This document shows positions 8,253 through 27,317 of a stretch of 27,317 nt of DNA, piece after piece; positions within the stretch are counted from its first letter, which is position 1; every line of letters begins with the position of its first letter. The notes under the pieces were generated by a model, which worked only from the letters and a program-made list of their open reading frames with translations, searched no databases and was not told the DNA's origin. The stretch spans positions 1 to 27,317 of IMG/VR virus record IMGVR_UViG_3300021962_000524; one strand, written 5' to 3'. The translations under genes were made by a program, and so were the position numbers. This stretch comes from a virus.

Positions 8253-8263
8253 TTGACTACCTA

Positions 8264-8905: not shown

Positions 8906-8915
8906 GTTAGTCTCC

Positions 8916-10478
8916 TTATTTGGATGGTACATTATTTGGTTGTGGTGGGTTTGAATCGAGAGGTCCAGGCGGTGTCACGGGTTCTTCTGCCGGAGGCTCA
9001 TCCTTAACTTCTTGATCAATTTGTTTCTTAATTTCTTCAATGTCGTCTTCGCTCATATGGAGTACATTCTTACGAACCCACTCTTTAGAGAAGTAATCAC
9101 CGGTGTAATTACTTATATCGGCTAGAATACTCAATCTGTCACGAAGGATTTCAGCTTCCTTCAACTCTTCAAAATGGTTATCATTCATGAAGTTGTAACG
9201 GATCTTGTCCTTGATAAGATCCCACTCTTCAGGCTTAATGATACCCTTGAGGATCAGTTGCTTTTCAAGTGCCTTATCGAAAAGGATAGTGAAGCGAGCA
9301 CGAAGACGACGAATAAACTTTGCAAACTTGACTTCATCGCGGGAGATTTCAGAGGCTCTACCAAGTGAGAAACCTGTCTCTGGTTCCATACGCGAGATTG
9401 GAACGTTCAATGACTTGTACAACTTCTTTTGGAAGTACATAATGTCGTCGAGTTCACCTAGGTTCTGACCACCAGGAAGGGTGGTAATTTCTGTACCACG
9501 TCCACCTTCACGGCGAGGAAGCCAGAAGTCGTCCGTGATCGTCATGAACTTGCGATCGTCTCTCATCTCGCCTGTCGCAGCGTCATAGACGAGTTTGTTC
9601 TTGTGGTTGACCATCATATCACGAAGATACTGTTCAGCCTTCAGTTTTGGAAGGTTACCGACGTCGATATAGAAGATTCTACGTTCTGGGGCACGTGAGA
9701 TTCTGTAGATAACTGCGGCGTCTTCCATCATACGAAGTTGGTTCAAAGGCTTGTATGCCTTATGCAAATAAGAGAGAACAACTGTGTTTCTCTCGTTCAG
9801 CATACCAGAGTTACAGTGAATGATCGAGTCTTTTGCGATCTTCAAGCCCTGAATAGAATCAGTAGCACCAAGAACGTTTGCAGATTGACCGTCATATCCT
9901 CTTTCCGAGTACATGTAATACTCGGCTTTTACTTTCTTGACCGCGAAGTTTGTACCATCAACTCTTTGACGCTCGAACTCACGAATCTTACGAATCTTAC
10001 GTGGGTCGATGTAACGAAGTTCCATGATCCCTTTTCGTGGAGCAGATTCGTCAATAAGTATATGATAATTCAAACGCCCATCTACATACCAACGCTGGAA
10101 AATATCATAACCTTGATTAGAAAAGTCAAGGAGTTTCAGAATGTTTTCAAATTCTTCGCGAATCTTCTTACGAATGCTGTCTGGCATTTCGATGTCGTCA
10201 GTCACGCACTCAACTACATTATCATCATCAGCAATAGTGATTGCTTCGTTCACAATATCATCTACTGCTGACTGTACTTCCGGCTGCTGAAGCATTCCGC
10301 GGTAACGATTTACCAATTCTGCTTCAGTCTTTGCCGTACCGTCTAAGTCTACAAACGAACTTTGTGCGCCACCAGTCGCAACTGAAATAGCTCCATCATC
10401 ATTAGTAGGTTCGGCGAAGGACCTTATCTGATCCTTCGCTTCTTCTTTTCGCTTTATTTCGAAGCCGAACAGCTGCAT
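8916..10478 (-). CDS. 20: portal vertex protein gp20
   Basis: Dodecameric portal through which DNA enters the head and to which the neck attaches; 520 aa, nearly the same as T4 gp20 (524 aa). The N-terminus MQLFGFEIKRKEE, the VNRYRGMLQQPEVQSAVDDI segment, the PISRMEPETGFSLGRASEIS region and the proline-rich acidic C-terminal tail are typical of the T4 portal family. The ATG has AAGGAT upstream. Placed between the tail tube gene and the core genes exactly as in T4. Confidence 0.97.
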   Translation of the reverse strand: MQLFGFEIKRKEEAKDQIRSFAEPTNDDGAISVATGGAQSSFVDLDGTAKTEAELVNRYRGMLQQPEVQSAVDDIVNEAITIADDDNVVECVTDDIEMPDSIRKKIREEFENILKLLDFSNQGYDIFQRWYVDGRLNYHILIDESAPRKGIMELRYIDPRKIRKIREFERQRVDGTNFAVKKVKAEYYMYSERGYDGQSANVLGATDSIQGLKIAKDSIIHCNSGMLNERNTVVLSYLHKAYKPLNQLRMMEDAAVIYRISRAPERRIFYIDVGNLPKLKAEQYLRDMMVNHKNKLVYDAATGEMRDDRKFMTITDDFWLPRREGGRGTEITTLPGGQNLGELDDIMYFQKKLYKSLNVPISRMEPETGFSLGRASEISRDEVKFAKFIRRLRARFTILFDKALEKQLILKGIIKPEEWDLIKDKIRYNFMNDNHFEELKEAEILRDRLSILADISNYTGDYFSKEWVRKNVLHMSEDDIEEIKKQIDQEVKDEPPAEEPVTPPGPLDSNPPQPNNVPSK

Positions 10479-14879: not shown

Positions 14880-15677
14880 TTATAAATCCTCTATCTGGAC
14901 AATGTAAGCCCAATCATCATCGATGTTCACGTTTGCGTATGGAACACTATTCGCTAAGATAGTTGTTGGTTGGCCATTTGCTGTAAGTCCGGGTTGAACC
15001 GTGATATTCACTACAGGTGCAGCAGCAAGAGTGTCTGAGTAGATATTAGTATCGACAAACTTGATAACTTTCTTATCAGAAGTTGGTCCATAATAGTAAC
15101 CCTTGAGCGTAAATTGAAGTGTCCAAATAACTGCTCTACGTTCGTCATAACTTCCTTCATATGTGTCTTCTGTAGTGACAGAATTCAAAATGATCGGAAT
15201 GTCAGTTAAGTTATCCATTGTATCAACCATCTTTGCAGTAACAGTAAATTCTGGTTTAAAAAATGGAAGAATTTGTTCAACTATTTTAGTAGCATCTTCA
15301 GAATACTTAGCCATGATGTTGAGTTGAAATTCAAGATTATATGGTGTAGCAGTAAACTGCGTACGGACTCTGTCGTTCGTACCGGCGATACCCTTTGATA
15401 CTAGCGTACGGTTTGTAAGCTTTCTTTCGCCATCATAGTTCATAGAAGTGAGTTCAAACGTAATACGAGGTAAGGTAATTGCTTGAGCCTGTAGATTCGG
15501 ATCTTGTTCGATCTTCGCTAGAAACTTTTGTGACGGGCCATAGTTAACTGGTACCTTAAAACGTTGTTGTTCTTGACCAGCATTATTTGAACGACCAATA
15601 GAGATATCATTAAAGAGTGTACCAAATATGGCAACATATCTTCTCGTTGTTTGGTTGTAATATGAGTATCCGAACAT
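14880..15677 (-). CDS. 15: tail terminator / sheath stabiliser gp15
   Basis: Caps the finished tail and joins it to the neck; 265 aa (T4 gp15 is 272 aa). The N-terminus MFGYSYYNQTTRRYVAIFGT followed by LFNDISIGR is the hallmark of this family. Start and gp14 stop overlap by one base (TAATG). Confidence 0.95.
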   Translation of the reverse strand: MFGYSYYNQTTRRYVAIFGTLFNDISIGRSNNAGQEQQRFKVPVNYGPSQKFLAKIEQDPNLQAQAITLPRITFELTSMNYDGERKLTNRTLVSKGIAGTNDRVRTQFTATPYNLEFQLNIMAKYSEDATKIVEQILPFFKPEFTVTAKMVDTMDNLTDIPIILNSVTTEDTYEGSYDERRAVIWTLQFTLKGYYYGPTSDKKVIKFVDTNIYSDTLAAAPVVNITVQPGLTANGQPTTILANSVPYANVNIDDDWAYIVQIEDL

Positions 15678-16336
15678 TAGTAATTTTCCTCACCAAACGG
15701 GTTTTCTTCAGTGAAGTCGAGAATACCATCAGCAACATTTTCGATAGTTAGGTTGTCAGCAGCAAAGTCAATCGATTCAACGCCAGCCATTGTGTTATTT
15801 GCGGTTGTGATAAGATTAGCTGAGATGATGTCGATCTCTTCAACACCAGTATTGAATCTCTCGTTCGAGAATTCAAACAGTTCGCAGCGAAGATCATACA
15901 TCTGAAGCGCACCGAGTTGATAGAAGATAGGCTTGTTATCTACAAACATCACTTCATACATTTTGCGATTGAGTGGGAAGTAGATTAAATCGCCTTCATT
16001 CGGTCTGACCTGCTCGTCATATCTTCCAACATCTTCAGCATAACGTCTCATAGCAACAGAGAAAGTAACAGAGTCTCTGATCTGTAGGCCAAACTTAGAT
16101 AGGAATTCTCCATCACCGCCAAAGCCTTCGACGTTCTTGATGTACATCTCAATCTGATATGCGTTGTTGAAGATCGGAAGATCATCTTCGTTTAGTAAGT
16201 CATCCTTAGCACCGAGCACTCGAGGCAAGTACCACATATCAACACCATGAATACGAATGCTTTCAATAATCAAATCCTCGATAAGTGTTTGCTCCATCGA
16301 GTTAGAAAAGTTACTGAAGTAAAAGTTCGTTGCCAA
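15677..16336 (-). CDS. 14: neck protein gp14
   Basis: Neck protein of 219 aa (T4 gp14 is 256 aa) that, with gp13, completes the head and receives the tail. The opening MATNFYFSNFSNSMEQTLI and the GVDMWYLPR segment are family signatures. The only start that preserves this conserved N-terminus is TTG at 16336-16334; the nearby ATG at the gp13 stop is in another frame. GGAT lies a short distance upstream. A weak start may limit the yield of this low-copy part. Confidence 0.93.
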   Translation of the reverse strand: MATNFYFSNFSNSMEQTLIEDLIIESIRIHGVDMWYLPRVLGAKDDLLNEDDLPIFNNAYQIEMYIKNVEGFGGDGEFLSKFGLQIRDSVTFSVAMRRYAEDVGRYDEQVRPNEGDLIYFPLNRKMYEVMFVDNKPIFYQLGALQMYDLRCELFEFSNERFNTGVEEIDIISANLITTANNTMAGVESIDFAADNLTIENVADGILDFTEENPFGEENY

Positions 16337-16341
16337 TTCAT

Positions 16342-17082
16342 TTATCCGATCATGTCAGTAATTGGTAGAGAATAACTCGAAAGCATCTCTTGTTCCATCT
16401 TCTTTATTTCTTCATCAGCGTCGTTCAAAATCTTTTCACCATTGAACTGTACGCCGCCTGGAAGGTTCATACCGATGAACTTAGTAAGGTTTGCACCCCA
16501 CTGATACTTGATCTTCGCGGTTGCGTAGTTTTGAAGCCAACGGTCTTTCCATACATCTGCGTAAGTAACTGGGTCTAAGACTTGGTAGCATTCGTAAACG
16601 ATAAACTCACCGACATTGATCTTGTCTTTATTCATATCAATGTAAAGCTTGTTCTGATTACGATTATAACGAATCGGCTGACGACCACTTAACGTCTCTT
16701 GCATAAAGGCAAGATGTTGGAAAGACATGTAATAGTTGATTAGATCATAGTTGACAAAGTCGTGAAGATTGTTTAGAACAAACTGGTAGGTAGCACTAAA
16801 GATACCAGACCCTGTTAGATTGCCAGCAATGGGAAATAGATTCACGACACCAATCACGTTTTCTGGAACTAGAATATAACCGTTGTTGAGGTCAGTTTGA
16901 GTCATCTGGTATTTCACGTACATTTTTTCAGTGCCATCAAAGTGATAGTCCCAATAGTATGCGAGTGCTTCGTCAATTCGATCTTCAATCTGATCGTCGT
17001 CGACGTTGATTTCAATGACTGGCTTACCCAATTTGCGTAAGCAATATTCTTTGAATTCCGTACGTGATGTTGGTTGAGCCAT
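16342..17082 (-). CDS. 13: neck protein gp13
   Basis: Head-completion neck protein of 246 aa (T4 gp13 is about 309 aa). The N-terminal half has the typical RTEFKEYCLRKLGKPVIEIN and the acidic VDDDQIEDRIDEALAYYWDY segment. AGGAG precedes the ATG and a late promoter lies 22 bases upstream. It is the first gene of the conserved neck-to-head module; everything upstream of it here is the accessory block. Confidence 0.95.
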   Translation of the reverse strand: MAQPTSRTEFKEYCLRKLGKPVIEINVDDDQIEDRIDEALAYYWDYHFDGTEKMYVKYQMTQTDLNNGYILVPENVIGVVNLFPIAGNLTGSGIFSATYQFVLNNLHDFVNYDLINYYMSFQHLAFMQETLSGRQPIRYNRNQNKLYIDMNKDKINVGEFIVYECYQVLDPVTYADVWKDRWLQNYATAKIKYQWGANLTKFIGMNLPGGVQFNGEKILNDADEEIKKMEQEMLSSYSLPITDMIG

Positions 17083-17103: not shown

Positions 17104-17111
17104 TATTTATA
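17104..17111 (-). promoter_or_regulatory. late promoter TATAAATA (gp13)
   Basis: Exact late octamer on the minus strand in the 48-base gap after the accessory block, 22 bases before the gp13 ATG. It lets the neck genes be transcribed regardless of the block upstream. Confidence 0.8.
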
Positions 17112-17130: not shown

Positions 17131-17700
17131 TCAATCGTGATCGTATAGAAACAAATCGACAGGTAGTGCTATGCGCAGAGTTGAATCATATCTTCTGACA
17201 TGGTGATATAGAAAACCTGGAAAAACAACAACATCTCCAGTCTGTGGCATATGAACAGTCGGCTTAAACTGCTGTTGGAATTCTAAAGTATATCCGCGGT
17301 TTGCGTTGGTTCGAGGATCACTGAAAACAATCTCTCCACCTTTGTCTTCATGCTCAGCCATGATATAGAAAACAGCAACAAATGGCGAACCGGCATGGTT
17401 ATGAGTATCCATACTGTAGCCGCCACGACTACCAGTCAACCATGATTTGAACTTAAACTCGTAGTCATAAAGGCTAATACCACACACCTTATCGAGGTAC
17501 TCAGCGAACTTTTCTTCTGCAAGTTCACGAAGTCTTGGTATCTTATGTATTACGAGTGAAGCGTCATCATCACCCGGAGAGGTAACAACTTCGTTTGACA
17601 TGACACCTGTCAGTATAGTTTCGCAATCTTCTTTACTAATCTTCGATAAGTACACCGAAGTTGGGTAAAGATTATTGAATCCTAAATCCAATCTCTTCAT
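17131..17700 (-). CDS. 2-oxoglutarate/Fe(II)-dependent oxygenase-like protein
   Basis: Protein of 189 aa with the layout of the phage 2OG-Fe(II) oxygenase family common in marine T4-like phages. Metal-site residues appear as His100 and His102 in MDTHNHAGSPF, a distal His166/His167 in FPGFLYHHVRRY, and Arg176 as probable 2-oxoglutarate ligand; PQTGDVVVFPG between them is the usual strand leading to the distal histidine. The reaction would be oxygen-dependent hydroxylation, substrate unknown. The ATG has GAGG about ten bases upstream and overlaps the preceding gene by 29 bases. It is the last gene of the accessory block. It differs from the two other oxygenases here, which have a His-x-Asp site. 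Confidence 0.8.
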   Translation of the reverse strand: MKRLDLGFNNLYPTSVYLSKISKEDCETILTGVMSNEVVTSPGDDDASLVIHKIPRLRELAEEKFAEYLDKVCGISLYDYEFKFKSWLTGSRGGYSMDTHNHAGSPFVAVFYIMAEHEDKGGEIVFSDPRTNANRGYTLEFQQQFKPTVHMPQTGDVVVFPGFLYHHVRRYDSTLRIALPVDLFLYDHD

Positions 17701-18076
17701 TGTAATATTCCCTCACATCTGGCACCATACCAGTCATTTTTAGTGGTAATGTAATGTCGTTTAAGATTTTGTCGTACGTCTCAGGATCTTGATTGTAAGT
17801 TACAAAATATGGATCATTTCCAGCAAGTAACATCGAATCTTTGAGTAAGTCAATAAGATCTTCGCCGTAGTCAGAACTGATCCAACTTGCATAACATACT
17901 GCGACAAAATAACTCTTAGCTGGATATATCCATTCATCAACCTTTTCGTGGAAGTGTCGAACGATATCGCTGTAATCTTCGCTTATAGTAATGTCAACAC
18001 TGTTTAAATCATCAGTGTACTCTTGATTGAGTCTATGATAGATTTCTTGTTTAACTTTCCATTCTTGCATAGCCAT
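17672..18076 (-). CDS. unidentified 134-aa protein in the radical SAM block
   Basis: I do not recognise a family. The 134 residues are acidic and aromatic-rich, mostly predicted helix, with features such as DEWIYPAKSYF, SSDYGEDLIDLLKD and a C-terminal VREYYNEEIGF. No cysteine cluster, signal peptide or membrane span. It is wedged between a radical SAM gene (26-base overlap upstream) and an oxygenase gene (29-base overlap downstream), which argues for tight co-expression; an accessory or substrate-binding partner is possible. An alternative start two codons later cannot be excluded. Confidence 0.7.
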   Translation of the reverse strand: MAMQEWKVKQEIYHRLNQEYTDDLNSVDITISEDYSDIVRHFHEKVDEWIYPAKSYFVAVCYASWISSDYGEDLIDLLKDSMLLAGNDPYFVTYNQDPETYDKILNDITLPLKMTGMVPDVREYYNEEIGFRIQ

Positions 18077-18962
18077 ACCAATCTAAAAGCCCTTTGTATC
18101 CATTGCAGCTAGTGTCTAAATTTTCTACATATCTATAGTGTTCAGTTAGACATCCGCCGTAGTATTTACATTCCTTACAAATATCACTTAGCTCAGTCTT
18201 TTCCTTTTGCGCCCATGATACATATTCACCCCAAGAATCAAGTTCTAAAAAGTACTCTCTATCATATTTATCGAATTCAAGTACACCAAACTTTCCATTT
18301 GGCGTAATGTAGACGTGGTTATCAGAGAACGCATTATAGTTACCATTGTATGAATTCTGAATGTGAGACTCATTTATAAACTGAAACTTCTTTGTAGTGA
18401 TAGCTGTTAACCACTTGATAACAAAGTTCTCATAATCTTGGTGTGTAACTTTAAATGAGTTGGCTTGGTTTATTGAATACGGTTTTATCTCTACTGACTC
18501 AATAGAAGAACACATGTTCAGCATCGATATCATCTCTTCAACATTCATCTGTAATACCTTTGGCGAAGCAAGTATGAGTACGGCGATAGGAACGGGCGAC
18601 ATGAGCATGTTCCTATAGACCAGTTCAGACTTTTCTCTTGCTTCAAAATCATAAGACACTGAGAGGTATACATCGTCTTCATAGAAACCGTCATGGATCA
18701 TTGAGTAGTTTGTGATGATATTGATGTCTCCGTTGTAATGCTTTCGAATTACGTCCTTCATCAAATAGAAGTAATCTTTCTTCAGCGCACCGATTTCACC
18801 GCCATAAAGATCAATATGTTCTATGCCAGGTACTTGACTCAGTAATTCATCTAATTTCTCTAAACTTATCTTTTTCGTATCACGAAGTTGAGAGTCAGTT
18901 AGATAACAAAAATCACAACTGAAATTGCAGAAGTATGACGGGTTGATACTTACAGTATACAT
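18051..18962 (-). CDS. radical SAM protein with C-terminal SPASM-like cysteines
   Basis: Protein of 303 aa. A radical SAM cluster motif CNFSCDFC (Cys12, Cys16, Cys19) follows a short first strand, and the GGE motif that binds the SAM amino group is seen in DLYGGEIG (about 51-58). The C-terminal end has Cys262-x2-Cys265-x5-Cys271 plus Cys286, resembling part of a SPASM/twitch auxiliary cluster domain as found in peptide-modifying radical SAM enzymes. It would generate a 5'-deoxyadenosyl radical to modify a substrate, probably a peptide. The start overlaps the previous radical SAM gene by 13 bases. Confidence 0.88.
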   Translation of the reverse strand: MYTVSINPSYFCNFSCDFCYLTDSQLRDTKKISLEKLDELLSQVPGIEHIDLYGGEIGALKKDYFYLMKDVIRKHYNGDINIITNYSMIHDGFYEDDVYLSVSYDFEAREKSELVYRNMLMSPVPIAVLILASPKVLQMNVEEMISMLNMCSSIESVEIKPYSINQANSFKVTHQDYENFVIKWLTAITTKKFQFINESHIQNSYNGNYNAFSDNHVYITPNGKFGVLEFDKYDREYFLELDSWGEYVSWAQKEKTELSDICKECKYYGGCLTEHYRYVENLDTSCNGYKGLLDWYGYARMES

Positions 18963-19987
18963 GATTCATCCACATATGGAGTTGGCTCTAGAGTTAATCC
19001 ATTTGCTAGAATAATTTCTGGCGCAAGTTGTTTCATATGGCGGCAATGCTCTTCAACCATCCCAAAGTTCTTTAGGTCCTTTACAGTCTTTCTACAACCA
19101 TTACATATTTCAAACATTGGACACGTCAAGCACGATCTTTTCAGAGATAGTAAGTTTAAGTCATCAGTTAGTGGAGTAGAGAATCCTCCTGCCATCTCGT
19201 ATTCAAAATCTATAGACTTATCTTTGTCATCTCCAAACGAACCACATGAATAGTAGTCTCCTTCTGGATTGATATTTCTAATATGCGAGTCACATGTTCT
19301 ACTCTGTGGGCAGATTGTGTTTTCACCCTTTAGACGCTTCAACATCTGTTGAGTGTTATGCTCCCATGGTGCCAGTCCGGCTTTCCATATCTCAATGTAT
19401 TTCTCGTAGATCTTTGACAATCTGTACGGCTTGTCTTGATCTCCACTTGCCATAGCATAGTTAACTTTGCAGACCACGTCCATCTTCTTAGCTAACTCAA
19501 CAGTCTGTATCACGCTGTCTTCGTTTTCTTCGGTGATCACAGCTAGAAAGCTTGGTCGGTATCCAACATGTTCCAACATCGAATTCGAAGCAGCCCAGAA
19601 GTCTTCTTCAGTGAAGACTGAATAATCACCTTTCAGTCTACCATTGCCATACTGAAATGACGTTGCTACACCTATACGAGGATGAAGAAATAACTGTTTC
19701 CACTTTGACACATTCTTATAGAATGGCCACAGGTTAGTCGTAAGCGATATCGTCGCTGGGTAGTTGTTATCATCGAGATGCTTGATGAGTCTCCAGTAGT
19801 AAGCTGGACTCATCATCAAAGGATCTCCGCCGTTCACAATTATTGTGTTAGTGTTCGGATATCTCTTGAGAAAACGGTACACTCGATCTAAGTCTAATTG
19901 ACTTGTATGATCTGCAGATATTTTTGTTGACGAACAGAACGTGCATTTGAAGTTGCACACTTCTGTCGGCTTGATTATTAGGTCCAT
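18950..19987 (-). CDS. radical SAM/SPASM-type protein
   Basis: Protein of 345 aa. CNFKCTFC (Cys11, Cys15, Cys18) is the radical SAM motif and VNGGDPLMM (about 51-59) the GGE-like motif. The C-terminal third is cysteine-rich: Cys226, Cys232, Cys248, then Cys286-x2-Cys289-x5-Cys295-x2-Cys298 and Cys315. That order fits a full SPASM domain with two auxiliary iron-sulfur clusters, the architecture of peptide-maturing enzymes such as anaerobic sulfatase-maturating enzymes. Substrate unknown; the nearby Cys/His-tailed 204-aa protein is the best candidate. It starts 12 bases after the 101-aa gene and overlaps the next radical SAM gene. Confidence 0.9.
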   Translation of the reverse strand: MDLIIKPTEVCNFKCTFCSSTKISADHTSQLDLDRVYRFLKRYPNTNTIIVNGGDPLMMSPAYYWRLIKHLDDNNYPATISLTTNLWPFYKNVSKWKQLFLHPRIGVATSFQYGNGRLKGDYSVFTEEDFWAASNSMLEHVGYRPSFLAVITEENEDSVIQTVELAKKMDVVCKVNYAMASGDQDKPYRLSKIYEKYIEIWKAGLAPWEHNTQQMLKRLKGENTICPQSRTCDSHIRNINPEGDYYSCGSFGDDKDKSIDFEYEMAGGFSTPLTDDLNLLSLKRSCLTCPMFEICNGCRKTVKDLKNFGMVEEHCRHMKQLAPEIILANGLTLEPTPYVDESCIL

Positions 19988-19999
19988 TATGTCACTTTG

Positions 20000-20305
20000 T
20001 TAAACGTCTGCGTTAGGACGATCTTTTCCATACTTATAACTGCATTCTCTAATATACTTGGTTTGATCGATAGAGTCAACACCTTCTATCTCGCACAGCC
20101 TGCGATTTATGTCTCTGATCTCTGCTTTGATTACTTGACCGTAAGGTTCCATCACTTGGATCATATCCATGTACATTTTGTACTTTTCTGGATTGTCTTG
20201 ATGATCATGCATCTTAGTAATCCATACGTTGTAAACCTCAGCGCAAAGATCTCGCTCTTGACTAAGGTCTTCTTTCTTCTTTAGTAACTCTTCCGTTTCA
20301 GTCAT
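20000..20305 (-). CDS. small helical protein of unknown function
   Basis: Protein of 101 aa, highly charged and almost entirely predicted helix. The first 30 residues (ETEELLKKKEDLSQERD) look like a coiled coil, and KAEIRDINRRLCEIEG forms a second helix. No known motif. The ATG overlaps the end of the oxygenase gene by eight bases. Small helical proteins in such operons can be binding partners, but nothing here shows that directly. Confidence 0.7.
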   Translation of the reverse strand: MTETEELLKKKEDLSQERDLCAEVYNVWITKMHDHQDNPEKYKMYMDMIQVMEPYGQVIKAEIRDINRRLCEIEGVDSIDQTKYIRECSYKYGKDRPNADV

Positions 20306-20819
20306 CGATCAACCCCACGTTAAAATCGAAACTGGCTACTCGTCGAGTAATCTTAGTTGACTCCGCTCGATGCCAGAACCCTCTACAATTATTGACCATA
20401 AACAAATCGCCAGCTTGTGGATAAAATTGAGCAGTCTGTTCAGTACCTGTATCATCACGCCATTTGAAATTGATAGATCCACCTGTATCTGGATGCTGAG
20501 TGTCGAAGTAGTATAGAAAGAATATGTCGTATCCTTCAAACATATCAGTATGCCAACCTTGGTTATCAGCATCAACCCCGTCCCATATTAAGAATTTATT
20601 ATATCTTGCAGTTGGCCACTCAGGTAAGATATACTTGTGAGTCAAATACTGCGCAAAGATGTTCATTCGACTTTTTAGTTCGGGGTGGATGTCCTTCTCA
20701 CCGTTATCGCGAGAACGCTCTTCGGTGTTTAGAAGTCTAAATTCTGACACGTTAATGAGACCCAGTGCTTCAGGCTCTGAAAACTTGATAAAACCCTTTA
20801 TGGTAATGTCTTTCATCAT
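20298..20819 (-). CDS. 2OG-Fe(II) oxygenase-like protein with His-x-Asp site
   Basis: Protein of 173 aa with the double-stranded beta-helix ligand set: His90-x-Asp92 in QGWHTDMF, distal His150 in FWHRAES and Arg159/Arg160 in TRRVASF as the likely 2-oxoglutarate ligand. PQAGDLFMVNN leads to the distal histidine. It is clearly related to the oxygenase at 23552-24034: both have W-x-G-V-D about six residues before WH[T/N]D and end with HRA...RR..SF[D/E]F. The reaction would be hydroxylation or a related oxidation. ATGA overlap with the B12 radical SAM gene indicates coupling. Confidence 0.82.
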   Translation of the reverse strand: MMKDITIKGFIKFSEPEALGLINVSEFRLLNTEERSRDNGEKDIHPELKSRMNIFAQYLTHKYILPEWPTARYNKFLIWDGVDADNQGWHTDMFEGYDIFFLYYFDTQHPDTGGSINFKWRDDTGTEQTAQFYPQAGDLFMVNNCRGFWHRAESTKITRRVASFDFNVGLIDD

Positions 20820-22564
20820 GCTGCACCCTTAACATGAAGATGTTTAAACATCTCTGATATTATGATTGTTTTATACTTATCTAGTAGATTGTTAATAGTC
20901 TGATTTCTAAGCACACCATCTAAGCGCTTAATATTTCTAGCAGGTGTTGCAGGATTCAATATATCTGCGATCTCATCGCGTATTGGTTTATAATCGTCGA
21001 GTCTTGAAATTATTTCGTAACATAGTTTACCGAAATTTCCAGGAGTTATATCATTTTCAAATAGGTGGTAAAGTTCTTTCAACAGAGTATTACCAGCGAT
21101 ATTCATAAACCACATTTCGCACATGTCGGTGTAACTGTATGAGTAGCAAGACGATATCGTCTTAAACCGATTTCTCTTCGACTTGTAGAAACTTAACTGA
21201 TTGTCAACACCCTCTTCGTCAATAAGATCGGTGTAAACTTCTACTAGTTCGATCTTATACTTCTTGATGTATTCTGGGTTTGTCAAGGCCGAATCCGGCA
21301 AAAACATATAATCATGTCTGAAACTACTCCACGACTTAAAGTTCCATAGTATATCGAACTCTCTATAGAAGTCGTCTTTCGTACTTCCCGGCATACCTAA
21401 AATCAACTCTAACGCTGGCACGGGATAGCCCTGTTCGTGACATCTTTTATTGATGTGTTCGCTTAACTTCAACTTATCATCTAGCTTCAAGTCAACCCTT
21501 GCAGCAACCTTCATAGCTTCTTCACTGACACTTTGCAGGCTGACGGTTGGTACTATACTGATGTATGGATTTCCTTCATTAACCTGCGCGGTATATTCTG
21601 GTGCTCCTGCTACAAGGATAAACCCGCCTTCTTTTTTGGTAGTAGATATGCTATGCATCTCGGGACCAGTTCCAACTACGTTGAAGCAAGCATCAACCAA
21701 ACTGATACGTCTGGCTAGATCCTTACTTTTCATTGTACTAATGTCGGTGAGGTTTGCTTTGTTATCATATGCAAACTTAAAGATTTCCATGTCTCTTTCG
21801 ACAAAGGCTCCGAAGTTTGCATCTGTTAGATACATGTCTCTGAAGCCAGCATCTCTAAGAGCAAGGATGTCTTGCTTCACAACATCCGTTGGTTTTTTGT
21901 ATACCTTAGATCCAATGCCACCTCCCCATTCGCAAAAACTACAACTGTATGGACACCCACGGGTGGTTTCTAAAATACAGAACGGTTCAAGGTAGTTGTC
22001 TTGAGCGTAGGTTCGTGTCTCTTTCAAATAGTCGAAGTGTTCGCTATATACACTATAGTCTTGCATGAATTGCGGGCAAGTTTTCTCACTGTTCAGTTCC
22101 CATGATAGATCTTCACGCTTCGGTTGTTTATTATTCTCGAAGTATGAGTCGATCAGATCTTTTACAAACTCTTCTCCAGGTTTAGTCGGCTTAAGTATGA
22201 AGTCATATGCCGGTCGAGAGTTTAAAAATTCGGCATCGTTAGTACCAATCTGCGGACCACCTAATACACAAATTGCATTTGGCTTAACATCTTTGACAAA
22301 TGAACATAACGAGTCGCATATGTCATAGTTCCAGATATAGCTAGAGAATAAGAAGATGTCGGCATCTTTTACTTCTTCATAGATGTCTTCAATAGATTGA
22401 TACTCGTTGAACTTATACGGAGCCGGAATCCAGTTTACTTTATCACCAAACTTACCGTATCTACTGTAGTGACTTTGAAACATCAGATACGCAGCGTTAT
22501 TTGCCAAACACCAATCAGCATGAGGCGGGTTGATAAACGCTATATTAACTTTTTGATTCAACAT
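20816..22564 (-). CDS. B12-binding-type radical SAM protein
   Basis: Protein of 582 aa. The N-terminal half is a Rossmann-like cobalamin-binding domain pattern (KVNIAFINPP at the start, CVLGGPQIG near residue 109), followed by the radical SAM motif CPYSCSFC with Cys204, Cys208 and Cys211. Later SIVPTVSLQSVSEEAMK and GMPGSTKDDFYRE are typical of this class, as in radical methyltransferases and some oxidative cyclases. The canonical DxHxxG base-off motif is not seen. I chose the ATG at 22564, just before the first conserved strand; an upstream in-frame GTG at 22594 would lengthen the overlap with the previous gene. Likely task: methylation or carbon-carbon chemistry on a peptide, not proven. 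Confidence 0.88.
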   Translation of the reverse strand: MLNQKVNIAFINPPHADWCLANNAAYLMFQSHYSRYGKFGDKVNWIPAPYKFNEYQSIEDIYEEVKDADIFLFSSYIWNYDICDSLCSFVKDVKPNAICVLGGPQIGTNDAEFLNSRPAYDFILKPTKPGEEFVKDLIDSYFENNKQPKREDLSWELNSEKTCPQFMQDYSVYSEHFDYLKETRTYAQDNYLEPFCILETTRGCPYSCSFCEWGGGIGSKVYKKPTDVVKQDILALRDAGFRDMYLTDANFGAFVERDMEIFKFAYDNKANLTDISTMKSKDLARRISLVDACFNVVGTGPEMHSISTTKKEGGFILVAGAPEYTAQVNEGNPYISIVPTVSLQSVSEEAMKVAARVDLKLDDKLKLSEHINKRCHEQGYPVPALELILGMPGSTKDDFYREFDILWNFKSWSSFRHDYMFLPDSALTNPEYIKKYKIELVEVYTDLIDEEGVDNQLSFYKSKRNRFKTISSCYSYSYTDMCEMWFMNIAGNTLLKELYHLFENDITPGNFGKLCYEIISRLDDYKPIRDEIADILNPATPARNIKRLDGVLRNQTINNLLDKYKTIIISEMFKHLHVKGAA

Positions 22565-23555
22565 ACTTAAAGGTCTCTTTGAAAACACATTCACCTAGGT
22601 CTCTTTTTATCTTAGAGTAGTCATTTTTAATAAAGCATGTAAATGGACACTTCTTGTAGAACTCACATTCAAAGCAATTATACCGATTGATAAACTTCTC
22701 TACTATCATACCAGAGAATAGATCGTTCGATGATGGGTTCGTTAGAAATATAGAGCCAGAGCACCCAATTGGAACTGGACCGGTAGGTAATACAGTATAA
22801 CTATTACCTCTAGTACATGACATCTTATTCGTCGGAGTATCTTCAGTGAAGTACGCAATATTTATACAGTCAGGATAGTTGTCGACAAGATGCTTGTAGA
22901 ATGCCAGCATCTCAGTCTCGCTTGGCATCAGTGCTTCTGATGTGCTAACAGCTGGAATAAGCGAATCAAAATCACACGGGAAGTTAGCATACAGATAATC
23001 AAAGAACGTATCACCGTCTATGATACGCTTAATGCTTTGCTTAGTCGCAACACAACTGATCATTCGAATTCGATCTTTTAGCAGAACTACGTTAGACTTA
23101 AACTGTTCTAGTTGATCGTTGTTAAATCTGCCAGTCGGATCGTACGATACAGATATGATGTAGTCGTGTTCTTCTAAGAATGACTGAATCGTTTCTACAT
23201 CATCAAACAATAGATTAGTGATAAAGTTGGCTTCAACAAATTTGTCGCCAATCACTTTGTTACGAATGCTTTCTATAAACTCTTGGTAGATGTCAAGAAA
23301 ACCGCGTTCTATCCAATGGTCCTGAAACAACTCACCACCCATCAAGTGGATCTTAAAATGCTTTGATCTTTTGTTGTTGTTTATCCACTCGGCTATGCTA
23401 TCGACCTTCGCAAGTATTTCTTCTCTACTCGCGCCAACTATTGATCGGTGATCCTGAGGACAGAATACACACGCAAGATTACAATGTTCAAATAAACAGA
23501 CTACGATTTCTGCGTAATCAATGACCTTCTGGCCAATTACATCATATATGCTCAT
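22545..23555 (-). CDS. radical SAM protein with SPASM-like C-terminus
   Basis: Protein of 336 aa. CNLACVFC (Cys25, Cys29, Cys32) is the cluster motif and LMGGELFQD the SAM-binding GGE motif. The C-terminal part has Cys294-x2-Cys297-x5-Cys303-x3-Cys307 and Cys323, a SPASM-like pattern also seen in the partial enzyme at the window edge. A role in modifying a peptide is likely by family; the substrate is inferred from the neighbourhood. The start overlaps the oxygenase stop codon (ATGA), and the end overlaps the B12 enzyme start. Confidence 0.88.
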   Translation of the reverse strand: MSIYDVIGQKVIDYAEIVVCLFEHCNLACVFCPQDHRSIVGASREEILAKVDSIAEWINNNKRSKHFKIHLMGGELFQDHWIERGFLDIYQEFIESIRNKVIGDKFVEANFITNLLFDDVETIQSFLEEHDYIISVSYDPTGRFNNDQLEQFKSNVVLLKDRIRMISCVATKQSIKRIIDGDTFFDYLYANFPCDFDSLIPAVSTSEALMPSETEMLAFYKHLVDNYPDCINIAYFTEDTPTNKMSCTRGNSYTVLPTGPVPIGCSGSIFLTNPSSNDLFSGMIVEKFINRYNCFECEFYKKCPFTCFIKNDYSKIKRDLGECVFKETFKYVESKS

Positions 23556-24034
23556 GGAATGGCTGGTATCTTAAACTCGAATGACAACAGGCGTCTAGGA
23601 CCACTGACATGAGTAGCTCTGTGCAAGAATTTTTTGTCTTGGTTCAACCATACAAATTGATTCTTCTTTGGATAGATTTTAAACTCTTCAGAAGGTGTTT
23701 TGATCTCAATAGAGTTACCGTAGGTCTCCCCATCGTCTAGATATATTAAGAAATTGCTGTTGAACTCTGCACAGTTATCATTATGCCAGTCTTTAGATAG
23801 ACTATCCACGCCGGTCCACATACAGCTTCGCGCAATGGTGTATTCACTAAATAGAGGTGACACATAAGTATTGCTGATGAATGAGTGTAGTGCATTTAGC
23901 AAGTTTACTGCTTCAGGGTCTATCTCAGAATCACCATCGTTGCAATCAGCAAACTGGAATCTCTTAAACAAAAAAGCCAAATCAGACTGCATAATACCAG
24001 TCGCGAATCCATTCAATAAAAAGTTCTCAAGCAT
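23552..24034 (-). CDS. 2OG-Fe(II) oxygenase-like protein, paralogue of the 20298-20819 product
   Basis: Protein of 160 aa. Ligands line up as His84-x-Asp86 in KDWHNDNC, distal His138 in FLHRATH and Arg147/Arg148 in GPRRLLSF. The match to the 173-aa oxygenase runs through most of its length (W-x-G-V-D, WH-x-D, YP, HRA, RR, SF-x-F), so the pair arose by duplication and may act on different sites of one substrate. AGGT lies about six bases before the ATG. It follows the 388-aa gene with a two-base gap and overlaps the next radical SAM gene. Confidence 0.82.
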   Translation of the reverse strand: MLENFLLNGFATGIMQSDLAFLFKRFQFADCNDGDSEIDPEAVNLLNALHSFISNTYVSPLFSEYTIARSCMWTGVDSLSKDWHNDNCAEFNSNFLIYLDDGETYGNSIEIKTPSEEFKIYPKKNQFVWLNQDKKFLHRATHVSGPRRLLSFEFKIPAIP

Positions 24035-24036
24035 TA

Positions 24037-25203
24037 TTAACCTAACGTATATTTAAGAAGGAGTTCTTTATTTTGGTGGTTCTGTAGGATAAAGTCAACG
24101 AAGTATGTATTGACAGATCCTAGGTCGATAGCATAGAATGCACCGGCAGCATGATTGTGATGGTGCAGTTCATAATCGATAACTTTCTGCATATCCGCAA
24201 CACTAATGACATCACCATTAGCAAAGAATGGAATAAAATCTAGCTTATCTATTTCAGATCTCAGTATAGTATACCATTGCTCATCAGTCCAAACTGTGCC
24301 GGTTACAATACTATACTGCCTTAGAACAGAAATGTCAACTGCTGTAATATTTTGCAAGTTGATATTGCCAGCAGCAGATGGTGCAGACATAGACGTCTTT
24401 GTGTTACCCCAAATGGATGGACGACACATTACTTCGATCATTGGAGCTGGATCGTTTGGCATATCATAAAAATTATCAAACGTATATGGTCCGTTTTGAA
24501 CTTGCAGTAGCTGTTGAAACAGTGGTTTTTGGAAGTGTACAAGCAAAATTTCTTTATGTTCGTATAGAAACTTTTCAATATCTTTCTTGATAAGTGGAGA
24601 CATACAAAAAGCTAATTCTTCAGCATATCTGCCATCGTAAAGATAAGACGCTAATAGGAACTCAACTCTAAGTTTTGATTTCACAGAATCGATGAATTGT
24701 TTATAGTCAGATCTGATTTCTGCGTCTGCTTCCCAACAAGTTGTGAATAGCGCTTCTTCTAAAGCCCAAGTCTCAGAAACACTATTTGCGAATCGCTGTG
24801 TAGCTGACATACGGCTGTTGATAAAGTTCTTTTCTTTGAACATATGTGATTTAAAAAACTTCCATCCATCTGTAGTAGTAGCATTAGGCAAAAGCAATTT
24901 AAGCCATTTACTAGCTAGTTTGTAGTATGATTCAAAATCACAGTAAATGTATACAGGGCGGTTACTTTCATCACCGCACTCTTTTACTGCAATCAACATA
25001 TCTAAAAACGATGAGTATGGTGCGCTTTCGCCAAATAGATTATCAACAGATTTAACGGTAGCTAAAACACTACCATAAAACACAACTTTCAGGTCAGTTA
25101 AAATCTCATTACCACCGTGTTCAGACGACACGATAATTCGATCATAACTCATATTAATTTTTTCATCAAAATCTATATAGACTTTATTAAACAGGTGAAA
25201 CAT
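24037..25203 (-). CDS. unidentified 388-aa protein, related to the 236-aa neighbour
   Basis: I do not recognise a family. The first 100 residues alternate strands and helices, then a mainly helical middle and a separate C-terminal part (about 275-388) containing a His-rich ELHHHNHAAG at 345-354. Three segments resemble the 236-aa protein just upstream: residues 83-129 with its 50-96 (both ending MF or IF, then KN), 145-168 with its 112-137 (W, LE, LF, C, DY), and a P-M-to-W-G stretch near 252-266. So the two look like divergent tandem duplicates, this one with an extra C-terminal domain. The ATG at 25203 has GGAG nine bases upstream and overlaps the previous gene by 17 bases. A role in substrate recognition is possible, not shown. 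Confidence 0.72.
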   Translation of the reverse strand: MFHLFNKVYIDFDEKINMSYDRIIVSSEHGGNEILTDLKVVFYGSVLATVKSVDNLFGESAPYSSFLDMLIAVKECGDESNRPVYIYCDFESYYKLASKWLKLLLPNATTTDGWKFFKSHMFKEKNFINSRMSATQRFANSVSETWALEEALFTTCWEADAEIRSDYKQFIDSVKSKLRVEFLLASYLYDGRYAEELAFCMSPLIKKDIEKFLYEHKEILLVHFQKPLFQQLLQVQNGPYTFDNFYDMPNDPAPMIEVMCRPSIWGNTKTSMSAPSAAGNINLQNITAVDISVLRQYSIVTGTVWTDEQWYTILRSEIDKLDFIPFFANGDVISVADMQKVIDYELHHHNHAAGAFYAIDLGSVNTYFVDFILQNHQNKELLLKYTLG

Positions 25204-25897
25204 CGACTACTTCTCCGATTGATTTTATCTTTGCATCTATATAATCTTGGTTTTCAAAGCCACCAGTAACGATTCCCCAAGTAAGAAGAAACATCGGGTT
25301 ATTCTCATTTGCCCAATACGAATATAAGTTTTTTCCTTTAAACATATATTCATTAAAGTATTTAGAGTAGTATATAAGATCAGACTCATTAACACCTTCG
25401 AAAAAGGTATAGAAATTTTGATGCTTCAGCAGACTGACAAAGTTGATACCTTCTGTACTATTAGTATCATCTTCTTTTTGTGCGCGAACATAATCTTTGA
25501 GTGTCTCGTCATTTACACAGAATATATTGAAGAGTACAAGCGATTCTAATTTTTGAATCCATTGATCAAGCATACCAGAAAATTTATCAATAATCTCTGG
25601 TGTGAATTGTGGCTTAAGATTCTTTCGTTGAAAGATCATGTCAATTACTCTTGACTCTAACGATTCAATGTTTACAATGTGATTAAACTTGAGATATGCT
25701 TCAACCATTTCAAATAACGATTCATCATTATCGTATATGATATCGCAAGGTATATCTAGATTACCGAGATATGTTAATAGTTTTTCACCTTTCAGATCTG
25801 ATGTACCATAATCGATTAAGTACTTAGTATCTTTGTCTTGAAAATACACTTTCAGGTCTTCTAAACCGATAGGGGCTTTGGTGTAAATGACACTCAT
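25187..25897 (-). CDS. unidentified 236-aa protein directly after the Cys/His-tailed gene
   Basis: No family recognised. It begins with a small alpha/beta-like part (VIYTKAPIGLEDLKVYF, then KYLIDYGTSDL) and continues as helices. It is similar in pattern to the 388-aa product downstream. I place the start at the ATG at 25897 because GGAG, which overlaps the last codons of the 204-aa gene, lies eight bases upstream; an upstream start at 25915 would be inside that gene. Immediate adjacency to the presumed substrate gene suggests that it handles or binds the substrate. Confidence 0.75.
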   Translation of the reverse strand: MSVIYTKAPIGLEDLKVYFQDKDTKYLIDYGTSDLKGEKLLTYLGNLDIPCDIIYDNDESLFEMVEAYLKFNHIVNIESLESRVIDMIFQRKNLKPQFTPEIIDKFSGMLDQWIQKLESLVLFNIFCVNDETLKDYVRAQKEDDTNSTEGINFVSLLKHQNFYTFFEGVNESDLIYYSKYFNEYMFKGKNLYSYWANENNPMFLLTWGIVTGGFENQDYIDAKIKSIGEVVDVSPV

Positions 25898-25901
25898 AAT
25901 A

Positions 25902-26516
25902 TTATCTCCGACCACGCGAGCTGTGGCAATTGCTGTGACATGATGCGTGACATACTGTAACTTGCTGTAGTTGTACAGTATCCCTAGCAGTAGTATATGC
26001 AGTTCGCAAATTCGTAAAAAATGTTTCTAAATTCAAAGTATTAATATCACTATCAGTAGCTATACCAGTTGACGCAGTCGCGCCTAAAGTTTGCAGATAT
26101 GTTGTGCTAAGATTTGCTTTACCAGTGACGTCAATAATGTTTCCAGGACCCTGACCAGTAATCGGGCCAGCATCGACTCTAGTACCAGCACCGACGGTAT
26201 TGCCAGCTCCACTAATCGTTAATACTGCTCTGAGGTTTCTAATTCGAGTATATGCGGTAGTTTCTGCACGCAACACACTTACGATTGTTGCAGCAGTAAT
26301 AAGTGATCCAGTACCTCCTAAGTTTGTTCCAGTGATACCGATCGTTTTACCCGTTGTCGAGCCACCCCATATGTTTGGGAAATACGATGAATAAGTTGGT
26401 GCGAATGGGTTAGCATTATCAGCATATATAATACTAGCATTTGCAGTTGCAACAACATAGTCAGCGAAACGGTCTACTACGTTTTGGTCATTTATGTTAT
26501 TTGTTAAAGTAGCCAT
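25902..26516 (-). CDS. candidate modified-peptide precursor with C-terminal Cys-His-x-x repeat
   Basis: Protein of 204 aa. Residues 1-180 contain no cysteine or histidine and are rich in Gly, Thr and Ala, with an aromatic patch PTYSSYFPNIWGG at 40-52; this resembles a phage structural or fibre-type protein more than an enzyme. A helix-like segment (about 160-186) leads into the tail, where Cys189-His190, Cys193-His194 and Cys197-His198 repeat every four residues, ending SSRGRR. All Cys and His of the protein lie in this tail. Surrounded by radical SAM and 2OG enzymes, it is the natural candidate substrate: long leader or carrier domain plus short core. Alternatives are a metal-binding tail. 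It begins two bases after a radical SAM/SPASM gene; the Shine-Dalgarno sequence is weak (GGAA). Confidence 0.75.
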   Translation of the reverse strand: MATLTNNINDQNVVDRFADYVVATANASIIYADNANPFAPTYSSYFPNIWGGSTTGKTIGITGTNLGGTGSLITAATIVSVLRAETTAYTRIRNLRAVLTISGAGNTVGAGTRVDAGPITGQGPGNIIDVTGKANLSTTYLQTLGATASTGIATDSDINTLNLETFFTNLRTAYTTARDTVQLQQVTVCHASCHSNCHSSRGRR

Positions 26517-26518
26517 AC

Positions 26519-27317
26519 TTATTCCATCTTAGCCAATAATTTCATCAGACTCTTCGGAGCTCCACATATGTCATCTTGCCATTCTAACTGATGGCAATCG
26601 CCATTACAATACTGAAAGACTGGGCATGTGTAGCACTTAGGGTTTCTGCTTCGTTCTTCTACAATACTACGAAGCCTTCTTGGACTATTTATAATGGCGC
26701 TAACAGTGTCGTCTATTGATCCATAATGAAACTCTGGTGCAGCATTAGGACAACCAGATATTGTGCCATCCGCGTTTATTGTGAAAATCTTTTCTTCACA
26801 ATCTCTACAGAAAGTTCCAGCACAAGTGTACCCCTTTTCAAACTTAGAATATATGTTCTCTAAAGATTCGTTATCAAACCAATTGCGAGCCTGATAATGT
26901 TCGGAGTCGAGGTGTAGGTCTACAAACCACTTATTAAGCTCTATATTAGTTGGGAAAATGTGTGGAAACATCTTAGCTGATCCGTTACTTGTTAACCGCT
27001 CAAACGATACTTCTTGAACTCCAAGTCTACGAATCCATCGCAGTAACGTGATCGGCTTATAAGAGATCGTATCTCGAGTGACGCTTATAAACAACTTGAC
27101 GTGAATGCCTTCGGCTAGCAAGGTCTTAACGTTAGAATGCCACAACTTATATTGCTTGTTATTAGTGAACCGAATCTTAGGATCCCAGGATGTGCCAATC
27201 CTACCACCAAGTTCATTTTTTATAAACTCTATCTGATCCTGTTTTAACTTGTATGTTAAATTGGTCGTTGCTCCGAATGATTGATTAGTTGATAAATCTT
27301 TGCATCGGTCTACAACC
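26519..27317 (-). CDS. radical SAM/SPASM protein (N-terminus beyond the window)
   Basis: The frame is open from the stop at 26519 to the window edge (265 codons visible), so the apparent TTG start at 27145 is not needed; upstream codons continue in frame with SWDPKIRFTNN, a conserved-type segment of SPASM-family radical SAM proteins. The core CX3CX2C motif must lie outside the window. The visible C-terminal SPASM domain shows CAGTFCRDC, then a Gly-Cys pair in DGTISGCPNA, and CYTCPVFQYCNGDC with a later Cys, the usual two-cluster ligand order. Peptide-maturing enzymes carry this domain. It lies two bases upstream of the Cys/His-tailed gene, the typical neighbour of a RiPP precursor. Confidence 0.88.
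   Translation of the reverse strand, partial: VVDRCKDLSTNQSFGATTNLTYKLKQDQIEFIKNELGGRIGTSWDPKIRFTNNKQYKLWHSNVKTLLAEGIHVKLFISVTRDTISYKPITLLRWIRRLGVQEVSFERLTSNGSAKMFPHIFPTNIELNKWFVDLHLDSEHYQARNWFDNESLENIYSKFEKGYTCAGTFCRDCEEKIFTINADGTISGCPNAAPEFHYGSIDDTVSAIINSPRRLRSIVEERSRNPKCYTCPVFQYCNGDCHQLEWQDDICGAPKSLMKLLAKME
26686..26693 (-). promoter_or_regulatory. possible internal late promoter TATAAATA before the 204-aa gene
   Basis: Exact late octamer on the minus strand inside the partial radical SAM gene, about 170 bases upstream of the 204-aa gene. Its placement could boost the substrate over the enzymes, but similar octamers also occur inside uvsW (270-277) and the 336-aa gene (22859-22866), so chance is a real option. 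Confidence 0.3.

Follow-up and report, generated by a model that had tools for sequence, protein, structure and literature searches.

A compact operon upstream of the neck genes

The window, by which we mean the whole stretch of 27,317 nucleotides analyzed here (positions 1 to 27,317 of IMG/VR virus record IMGVR_UViG_3300021962_000524), contains 13 overlapping minus-strand genes between 17131 and 27316, upstream of the T4-like neck genes gp13 and gp14 (Table 1); gp15 was assigned by PF16724. The list of open reading frames (ORFs) and the profile matches confirm the content given in the initial annotation, namely an operon of radical SAM enzymes (rSAMs; four with SPASM-like cysteines, one of the B12 type) and 2OG enzymes: there are five rSAMs and three 2OG oxygenases, together with four proteins without assigned function and one protein of 204 aa. 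The tight packing described there, with no gap above about 15 bases, also held, as the 12 junctions between the operon genes measure -29, -26, -13, +12, -8, -4, -50, -4, +2, -17, -14 and +2 nt, the largest intergenic gap being 12 nt. The 50-nt overlap results from the listed GTG start of the B12 rSAM gene, whose real start may be internal. Position 27317 is the end of the IMG/VR fragment and not of the operon: beyond the matching point, relatives carry a gene for a JmjC_2 cupin, in most cases followed by one for a tail fibre. The system sits among tail-fibre genes, but the place upstream of gp13 is not general, since relatives have the operon elsewhere in the structural region; marine T4-like phages are known to have a hypervariable cluster for host recognition at this place (PMC7029224).

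Table 1. Features of the operon and its borders, in window coordinates.
Feature	Position	Strand	Evidence
rSAM-A, SPASM radical SAM enzyme	26519..27316	-	SPASM PF13186 and TIGR04085 above cut-off; N-terminal part past contig end
TATAAATA, T4-type late promoter of precursor, inside rSAM-A gene	26686..26693	-	recurs in relatives
204-aa precursor (putative substrate), globular N-terminal domain	25902..26516	-	phrog_35144; AlphaFold2 model
Invariant 16-residue C-terminal tail CHASCHSNCHSSRGRR of precursor	25905..25952	-	alignment
p242, conserved partner protein	25187..25915	-	accompanies precursor in 34/34 pattern-found loci
p388	24037..25203	-	in 52/70 operons; no family match
2OG-Fe(II) oxygenase	23552..24034	-	PF13640 24 bits, under cut-off 27; HxD...H...R visible in sequence
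rSAM-C, SPASM-like radical SAM enzyme	22545..23555	-	PF04055 21.5 bits (weaker); CX3CX2C intact
B12-binding radical SAM enzyme, putative C-methyltransferase	20816..22594	-	B12-binding and Radical_SAM domains; nearest NCBIfam model NF033712 KedN5 methyltransferase, 105 bits (cut-off 700)
2OG-Fe(II) oxygenase	20298..20819	-	PF13640 25.9 bits, just under cut-off; HxD...H...R visible in sequence
p101, small protein	20000..20305	-	kept in 16/70 operons
rSAM-D, SPASM radical SAM enzyme	18950..19987	-	PF04055 39 bits, above Pfam cut-off; nearest model DynA 42 bits (cut-off 450)
rSAM-E, radical SAM with SPASM-like cysteines	18051..18962	-	PF04055 31 bits, above Pfam cut-off
p134	17672..18076	-	phrog_20737, E 8.5e-40; in 66/70 operons
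2OG-Fe(II) oxygenase	17131..17700	-	PF13759 43 bits, above Pfam cut-off; phrog_81
TATAAATA, late promoter of gp13	17104..17111	-	inside 48-nt gap separating operon from gp13
T4-like neck genes gp13 and gp14 (context)	15677..17082	-	gp13: phrog_211 head-tail adaptor, E 2e-42; gp14: PF11649

Enzyme families

The catalytic cysteines of the rSAM/SPASM enzymes are retained in nearly all of their relatives. The CX3CX2C motif is kept in 98-100% of the relatives of each rSAM and, within the window, is missing only from the truncated rSAM-A, whose relatives have it in 154/157 cases. Both CX3CX2C and CX2CX5C occur in 137/138 relatives of rSAM-C, while those of rSAM-E show them in 111/111 and 110/111 cases, respectively; rSAM-D is 54-62% identical to proteins of jumbo phages. 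The cupin, whose gene lies past the end of this contig, matches PF08007 (JmjC_2) in 30/30 members (33.8 bits against a cut-off of 22) and the histidyl hydroxylase MINA by profile (E 4.6e-6), and 125 of 132 cupins carry the HxD...H metal-triad pattern. As judged by profile likeness, the operon enzymes resemble peptide- or protein-modifying rSAM/SPASM enzymes and a ribosomal-oxygenase-like cupin rather than enzymes of cofactor or lipopolysaccharide pathways, in agreement with the initial annotation.

The window rSAMs all scored far under the cut-offs of the curated maturase models in NCBIfam, and the type of bond that they make is therefore a guess. The best scores in the window were 42.1 of 450 bits for dynobactin DynA and 26 of 650 for darobactin DarE, with 27.7 of 340 for the PapB ranthipeptide model and 21 of 310 for the GrrM cyclophane model; HxsC reached 15-27 bits against a cut-off of 267.9, and HxsB was not among the matches of the window proteins. 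In profile searches, none of the window's operon proteins, four of which have no assigned function, matched a peptidase or exporter family. The partner protein p242 was modeled with a pLDDT of 85 and had no PDB match in Foldseek.

A nearly invariant tail linked to the enzymes

The 204-aa protein ends in VCHASCHSNCHSSRGRR. Its last 16 residues follow the nearly invariant signature CHxSCHxSCHxSRGRR, in other words three CHxS units and RGRR, and the invariant columns of an alignment of 60 sequences all fall within this C-terminal tail, the conservation of which was also judged on 145 representatives. Outside the tail, the sequence is variable and the fold common: the AlphaFold2 model (pLDDT 85, pTM 0.82) shows a disordered tail after a globular domain, and precursors of other phage lineages match it in predicted fold. 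Foldseek found no fold match in the PDB, and no NCBIfam model matched the protein, the HxsA precursor model included. Considering that the tail ORFs end exactly at the stop codon and that both synonymous codons of Cys and of His are used about equally, the tail peptide is under selection. With the 204-aa protein as query, tblastn returned nothing in phages, since alignments omit the tail and the remaining sequence is too divergent. For Atu_ph07, the BLAST alignment covered residues 1-280 of 296 and stopped short of the tail, which illustrates how such a system escapes similarity searches.

We counted loci in which an ORF ends exactly in CHxxCHxxCHxxRxRR-stop. This tail-only scan yielded 129 loci, 117 of which contain operon enzymes, and most of the others hold little DNA. 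From codon degeneracy we estimated about 0.3 chance occurrences in the viral collection; as the pattern was found in more than 100 loci, nearly always exactly C-terminal, a chance origin is excluded. Conversely, 61 of the 80 loci found by their enzymes have the tail protein, and the remaining 19 stop short of its place; enzymes and the 204-aa gene thus co-occur, the point that the initial annotation had set out as its test. In 34/34 pattern-found loci rSAM-A lies directly upstream of the precursor gene. The conserved genetic coupling of the modifying enzymes to a ribosomally made putative substrate (117/129 and 61/80, with nearly all of the remainder truncated) is the mark of a RiPP pathway in the broad sense. 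It supports the earlier idea of a modified product, although a whole protein is a likelier product than a short peptide. In the genome collection, most of 88 matches were discarded as chance or low-complexity hits without the tail at the C-terminus, whereas in every genuine one the first C lies exactly 16 residues from the end. Several genuine matches, located in small MAG contigs (L210, L229, L248, L250/L269/L296), are probably misbinned phage.

This linkage bears on an auxiliary metabolism that helps the infected cell, a reading published for Campylobacter phages CP220 and CPt10 and their rSAM module (PMC2853527). For the operon studied here we find that reading very improbable, given its position in the virion gene block and the fact that its enzymes are obligately linked to a single tail protein that is not itself an enzyme. 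CP220 itself was rejected as a member: it has no CH tail in its first 100 kb and appears to carry another system, a module with an amidinotransferase and sugar transferases.

A private late promoter for the precursor

In T4-like loci, TATAAATA occurs within 200 nt upstream of the precursor in 78/139 cases, against 22/972 for other operon genes; in many loci it forms part of the 3' end of the enzyme gene that comes before. The codon choice of that enzyme gene is bent to keep it (55/89 versus 61/1759; codon bias test, P 4e-49), and this comparison led us to reject the in-gene element as a mere by-product of the protein motif INSP. The promoter test used IMG/VR loci, mostly T4-like, and therefore lends no support for phiKZ-like phages. 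Judged from sequence, a private late promoter would be fitting as for a virion protein.

The promoter also weighs against a carrier or scaffold, in which the tail protein would be a reusable platform and the enzymes would build a small molecule on its C-terminus for later release, as in pearlin-type pathways. Such a role would account for conservation that reaches exactly to the free C-terminus, for the many redox enzymes and for the B12 methyltransferase; we nevertheless think it unlikely, since the operon holds no look-alike of an aminoacyl-tRNA peptide ligase or releasing peptidase, and a promoter of this kind better suits an abundant structural product than a catalytic scaffold.

Distribution and fibre neighborhood

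The system was found in T4-like, phiKZ-like and Rak2-like phages, with FLC6, FLC8, SURPRISE13, Phosso, Atu_ph07 and pPa_SNUABM_DT01 as cultured members, and in chromosome-like contigs of Bdellovibrionota. The phrog_35144 protein is gp72 in FLC6 and SURPRISE13_072 in SURPRISE13. An enzyme block adjoining the tail protein is thus common to certain predatory bacteria and to large phages from three lineages or more; one clade has tandem short precursors. Phage contamination is an unlikely source of the Bdellovibrionota copies, which form a separate clade (support 100/96) and have housekeeping neighbors, with no tail sheath in five genomes. An S74 fibre gene lies 3.5-14 kb from the cluster in 5/5 of these genomes; the S74 proteins are short, and one or more of them begin with a pilin-like segment, while the Bdellovibrionota precursors have no obvious export signal.

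Among the phages, the cupin gene is immediately preceded by a gene with a tail-fibre domain in 77/120 cases; the same domain was not found upstream in phiKZ-like phages. This adjacency, and a CHx repeat able to bind metal, would suit enzymes that act on the neighboring fibre protein or on a host surface molecule, with the CH-tail protein serving as an adaptor or as a donor of metal or iron-sulphur. That other substrate seems improbable to us: lineages have different fibre genes, yet all loci with sufficient DNA contain the tail protein, and a donor would need no late promoter of its own.

Display on the virion, as initially proposed, has indirect support from the private T4-type late promoter, the adjoining tail-fibre gene and the fibre genes near the Bdellovibrionota cluster. 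In Atu_ph07, the precursor gp170 belongs to the virion-proteome cluster CDS 170-215, and all three such clusters span exactly 46 CDS (PMC6102473); we therefore no longer take the cluster start at CDS 170 to prove detection in virions.

Comparison with known systems

Like the His-Xaa-Ser (Hxs) and other rSAM/SPASM RiPP pathways, the operon has SPASM rSAMs beside a ribosomal substrate with short C-terminal repeats, and HxS triplets recur in the phage tail. It differs in its CHxS units with Cys, in combining four to eight rSAMs with 2OG enzymes and a cupin, in its phage structural context and in having no recognized peptidase or exporter in common. An antimicrobial or superinfection-excluding RiPP, freed at lysis to harm competitors or block rival phages, would be in keeping with what rSAM/SPASM enzymes typically mature and with the tandem short precursors; we give it little credence, however, because the tail is invariant and not diversifying, the leader would be a folded domain of 110-350 aa, synteny is with fibre genes, and no recognized transporter or peptidase is shared, an ABC pair adjoining the cluster in one Bdellovibrionota genome only.

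QhpD, the maturase of quinohaemoprotein amine dehydrogenase, is an rSAM/SPASM enzyme that puts Cys thioethers into a folded protein and not a cleaved peptide; its substrate is another one, and rSAM-C scores 18.7 bits against its cut-off of 453. With the ribosomal oxygenases (YcfD, MINA53, NO66; JmjC_2), among which MINA is a histidyl hydroxylase, the cupin shares HxD...H and the PF08007 match, but it is a short domain of 150-200 aa with a phage protein as its predicted substrate. Comparable rSAM cassettes lie between VrlC and gp14 in the host recognition cluster of pelagimyophages (PMC7029224) or among tail-fibre genes, as in Aeromonas phage 332-Vera with its eight rSAM genes (PMC12390700), although neither study recognized a substrate protein or pathway. 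The S74 genes close to the Bdellovibrionota clusters recall the MAT fibres of Bdellovibrio, S74 chaperone fibres by which the predators grip prey (PMC10769870); the neighbors seen here are short, and the MAT paper does not mention rSAMs.

A proposed maturation pathway

We consider it fairly probable that a late virion protein, associated with fibres and in contact with host cells, has its Cys/His tail cross-linked and hydroxylated by these enzymes; the tail as substrate, the kinds of bond, the virion location and the role are all what we infer. The whole operon would then serve to mature a single phage protein. This 204-aa protein would be made late, from its own promoter, with its C-terminal tail exposed and unstructured. 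Carbon or thioether cross-links on Cys, His and Ser of the tail would be the work of rSAM-A, rSAM-C, rSAM-D and rSAM-E, the JmjC_2 cupin and the 2OG enzymes would hydroxylate side chains (His, Ser or Arg), and in marine phages the B12 enzyme would add C-methyl groups. The product would be a virion protein of the fibre or baseplate region whose tip is rigid, resists proteases, may bind metal and touches the host envelope.

There is about an even chance, in our estimation, that this radical chemistry builds a hardened, non-canonical adhesive or envelope-penetrating tip common to unrelated large phages and predatory bacteria; it would then be the first system known in which enzymes are dedicated to the post-translational tailoring of a phage protein for host contact. 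Papers call phage rSAM clusters unusual, and we found no publication naming their substrate; clusters earlier called "highly unusual" or filed under metabolism would hereby gain a candidate substrate, a signature and an expression logic. If this is true, RiPP-type chemistry would give phages virion parts that are impossible with the 20 standard amino acids, and Bdellovibrionota predators would use the same parts.

A putative precursor with a conserved tail among modification enzymes

The window is one entire viral contig of 27,317 bases. On its minus strand, 13 closely packed genes lie upstream of gp13 in a T4-like structural block (gp13, phrog_211; gp14, PF11649; gp15, PF16724) and reach the contig end, with junctions between a 50-nt overlap and a 12-nt gap. 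The gene inventory of the initial annotation proved correct: five radical SAM (rSAM) proteins (one B12-type, four SPASM-like), three 2OG-type oxygenases, four unknown proteins (p242, p388, p101 and p134) and a 204-aa protein, here called the precursor, whose C-terminus is VCHASCHSNCHSSRGRR. The window stops within the rSAM-A gene, and its own cupin and fibre genes are therefore predicted past position 27317. Elsewhere, between portal gp20 and prohead protease gp21, an 829-aa and a 222-aa protein carry many repeats like EEVEQIDELSKKTLGSYxKKA.

Among 145 representatives, the tail consensus is C-H-[SA]-S-C-H-S-[SN]-C-H-[GS]-S-R-G-R-R, its C, H and R residues being prescribed by the selection pattern itself; 129, 108 and 127 of them have Ser at the three respective x+2 positions. 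All 10 invariant columns in an alignment of 60 precursors fall within the tail, while the body is variable, its sequences falling into two large clusters and several small ones. Each synonymous pair of Cys and His tail codons is used about equally, so it is the peptide that is under selection. The AlphaFold2 model of the precursor (pLDDT 85, pTM 0.82; tail ~53) matched predicted structures of gp170 of phage Atu_ph07 and of a 178-aa phage protein, the length of the DT01 precursor (Foldseek probability 1.0 for each); Foldseek gave no PDB match.

Coordinates of features in the window and in collected loci (L-numbers)
Feature	Location	Remark
Operon	window 17131-27316	minus strand
rSAM-A	window 26519-27316	cut by contig end
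Precursor	window 25902-26516	204 aa
rSAM-C	window 22545-23555
B12 rSAM	window 20816-22594
rSAM-D	window 18950-19987
rSAM-E	window 18051-18962
Intragenic TATAAATA	window 270; 22859	the latter within rSAM-C
Repeat proteins	window 5763-8932	829 and 222 aa
Dihydrofolate-reductase-like genes	L005:13855-15032	Burkholderia phage
CP220 rSAM module	L300:20690-29755	CP220 70690-79755
Pilin-like/S74 protein and neighbour	L311:17959-19705	Bacteriovorax MAG
Similar pair	L313:12658-14324
ABC transporter and DsbA-like genes	L311:3298-7783	after Bacteriovorax cluster

Enzymes and tail occur together

Using rSAM-D as a tblastn query, we found syntenic clusters in six distinct jumbo phages (Burkholderia FLC6, FLC8 and SURPRISE13, Sinorhizobium Phosso, Agrobacterium Atu_ph07 and Pseudomonas pPa_SNUABM_DT01), and 6/6 encode a protein that ends in this tail. 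The same query in IMG/VR gave 80 loci, 61 with a tail protein and 19 without one, these having <7.5 kb available upstream of rSAM-D; enzymes without the 204-aa gene, which the initial annotation had proposed looking for in relatives, were thus found in none of the rSAM-D loci with sufficient DNA. The reverse scan was enzyme-blind, counting ORFs that end exactly in CHxxCHxxCHxxRxRR-stop; the operon's rSAMs are present in the available DNA of 117 of its 129 loci, the other 12 being mostly short on DNA. Both rSAM-A and p242 occur in 34/34 single-precursor loci with room on either side. In 70 larger loci, many of which contain rSAM-D by construction, rSAM-C, D and E are found in 70, rSAM-A in 68, p134 in 66, p242 in 65, 2OG in 61 and B12 rSAM in 40; the cupin is present in all 55 that have room upstream. 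The canonical order is tail-fibre gene, cupin, rSAM-A, precursor, p242, p388, rSAM-C, B12 rSAM, 2OG, p101, 2OG, rSAM-D, rSAM-E, p134, 2OG. A second clade has a tandem pair of ~128-aa precursors, accompanied by another rSAM group (X in 11/12).

One Burkholderia phage operon has two dihydrofolate-reductase-like genes between rSAM-C and rSAM-D. Operon copies on small contigs of GTDB MAGs labelled Euryarchaeota, Rickettsiales, Bacteroidetes and Rhodobacteraceae (L210, L229, L248, L250, L269, L296) are probably misbinned phage DNA.

In every rSAM family, 98-100% of relatives keep the motifs intact. Four of the five window rSAMs match phrog_1802, and none reached a curated RiPP-maturase cut-off; the pathway works like rSAM RiPP pathways but falls outside the curated families tested. 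The cupin matches JmjC_2 (PF08007) in 30/30 members tested, and its profile also matches, among other cupins, the histidyl hydroxylase MINA (E 4.6e-6). From the rSAM families and this cupin it is natural to infer that the Cys/His/Ser/Arg tail would be cross-linked and hydroxylated. Campylobacter phage CP220 has a separate rSAM module, which includes an amidinotransferase and nucleotide-sugar transferases; no CH tail was found in the first 100 kb of this phage, and the module may belong to a different modification pathway. The open-access literature searched (preprints excluded) notes these rSAM enzymes without mentioning their substrate.

A late promoter ahead of the precursor

The motif TATAAATA is the established late promoter of T4. 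It occurs 10 times in the window against 1.3 expected, always on the coding strand and mostly immediately upstream of structural genes; one site lies within rSAM-A, 170 nt ahead of the precursor. In IMG/VR relatives it is found ≤200 nt upstream of 78/139 precursors versus 22/972 other operon genes (P 1.6e-60), and Ile-Asn codons spell it in 55/89 cases in rSAM-A versus 61/1759 elsewhere in operon proteins (P 4e-49), both P values being too small owing to relatedness of loci, though the contrast is nonetheless large. Precursors preceded by a gap of 15 nt or more have the motif in that gap in 14/20 cases; with shorter gaps, it is mostly in the rSAM-A coding region. The predicted promoter, an expression signal of the virion-protein type, belongs to the substrate and not to the enzymes. 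Two further window sites are also inside genes, one of them upstream of the B12 rSAM gene.

Genomic place and overall reading

Just upstream of the cupin, 77 of 120 operons with room encode a protein with a tail-fibre-family domain (phrog_22593/19602, Peptidase_G2-like), among them those of Atu_ph07 and Phosso; phiKZ-like phages have a different tail or virion protein there. The host recognition cluster of pelagimyophages contains rSAM cassettes that lie between VrlC and gp14 (PMC7029224), the position also taken by the window operon. Eight rSAM genes are part of the structural cluster of Aeromonas phage 332-Vera, alongside tail-fibre genes (PMC12390700). The Atu_ph07 precursor, gp170, falls in CDS 170-215, one of three virion-proteome clusters (PMC6102473); because all three span 46 CDS, this position is only suggestive of a virion protein. 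The best reading, which we consider fairly probable, is that the phages carry in this operon a pathway that matures the Cys/His tail of a protein made late and associated with fibres; both the modified tail and the virion tip are what we infer from the genes.

Related clusters in predatory Bdellovibrionota

The tail was also found in 9 of 369 Bdellovibrionota genomes, all labelled as MAGs. Housekeeping genes (pyruvate kinase, thiolase, methionyl-tRNA synthetase, KAS III) lie near the clusters in the regions examined, phage tail sheath was found in 0/5 genomes, and the rSAM-D proteins form a single supported clade separate from phages. Next after the Bacteriovorax cluster come two ABC transporter genes and a DsbA-like thioredoxin gene, possibly an exporter, which was not seen at the other Bdellovibrionota loci that we examined.

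In 5/5 genomes the cluster has an S74 fibre-chaperone gene 3.5-14 kb away (combined P ~1e-6); one of these is fused to a pilin-like N-terminus (Pfam), and a second is similar in appearance. In the Bacteriovorax MAG, the protein that combines a type IV pilin-like N-terminus with an S74 chaperone adjoins a 184-aa protein of unknown family. Bdellovibrio deploys S74 'MAT' fibres against prey (PMC10769870). The common theme of the phage and Bdellovibrionota clusters is attachment to other bacteria.
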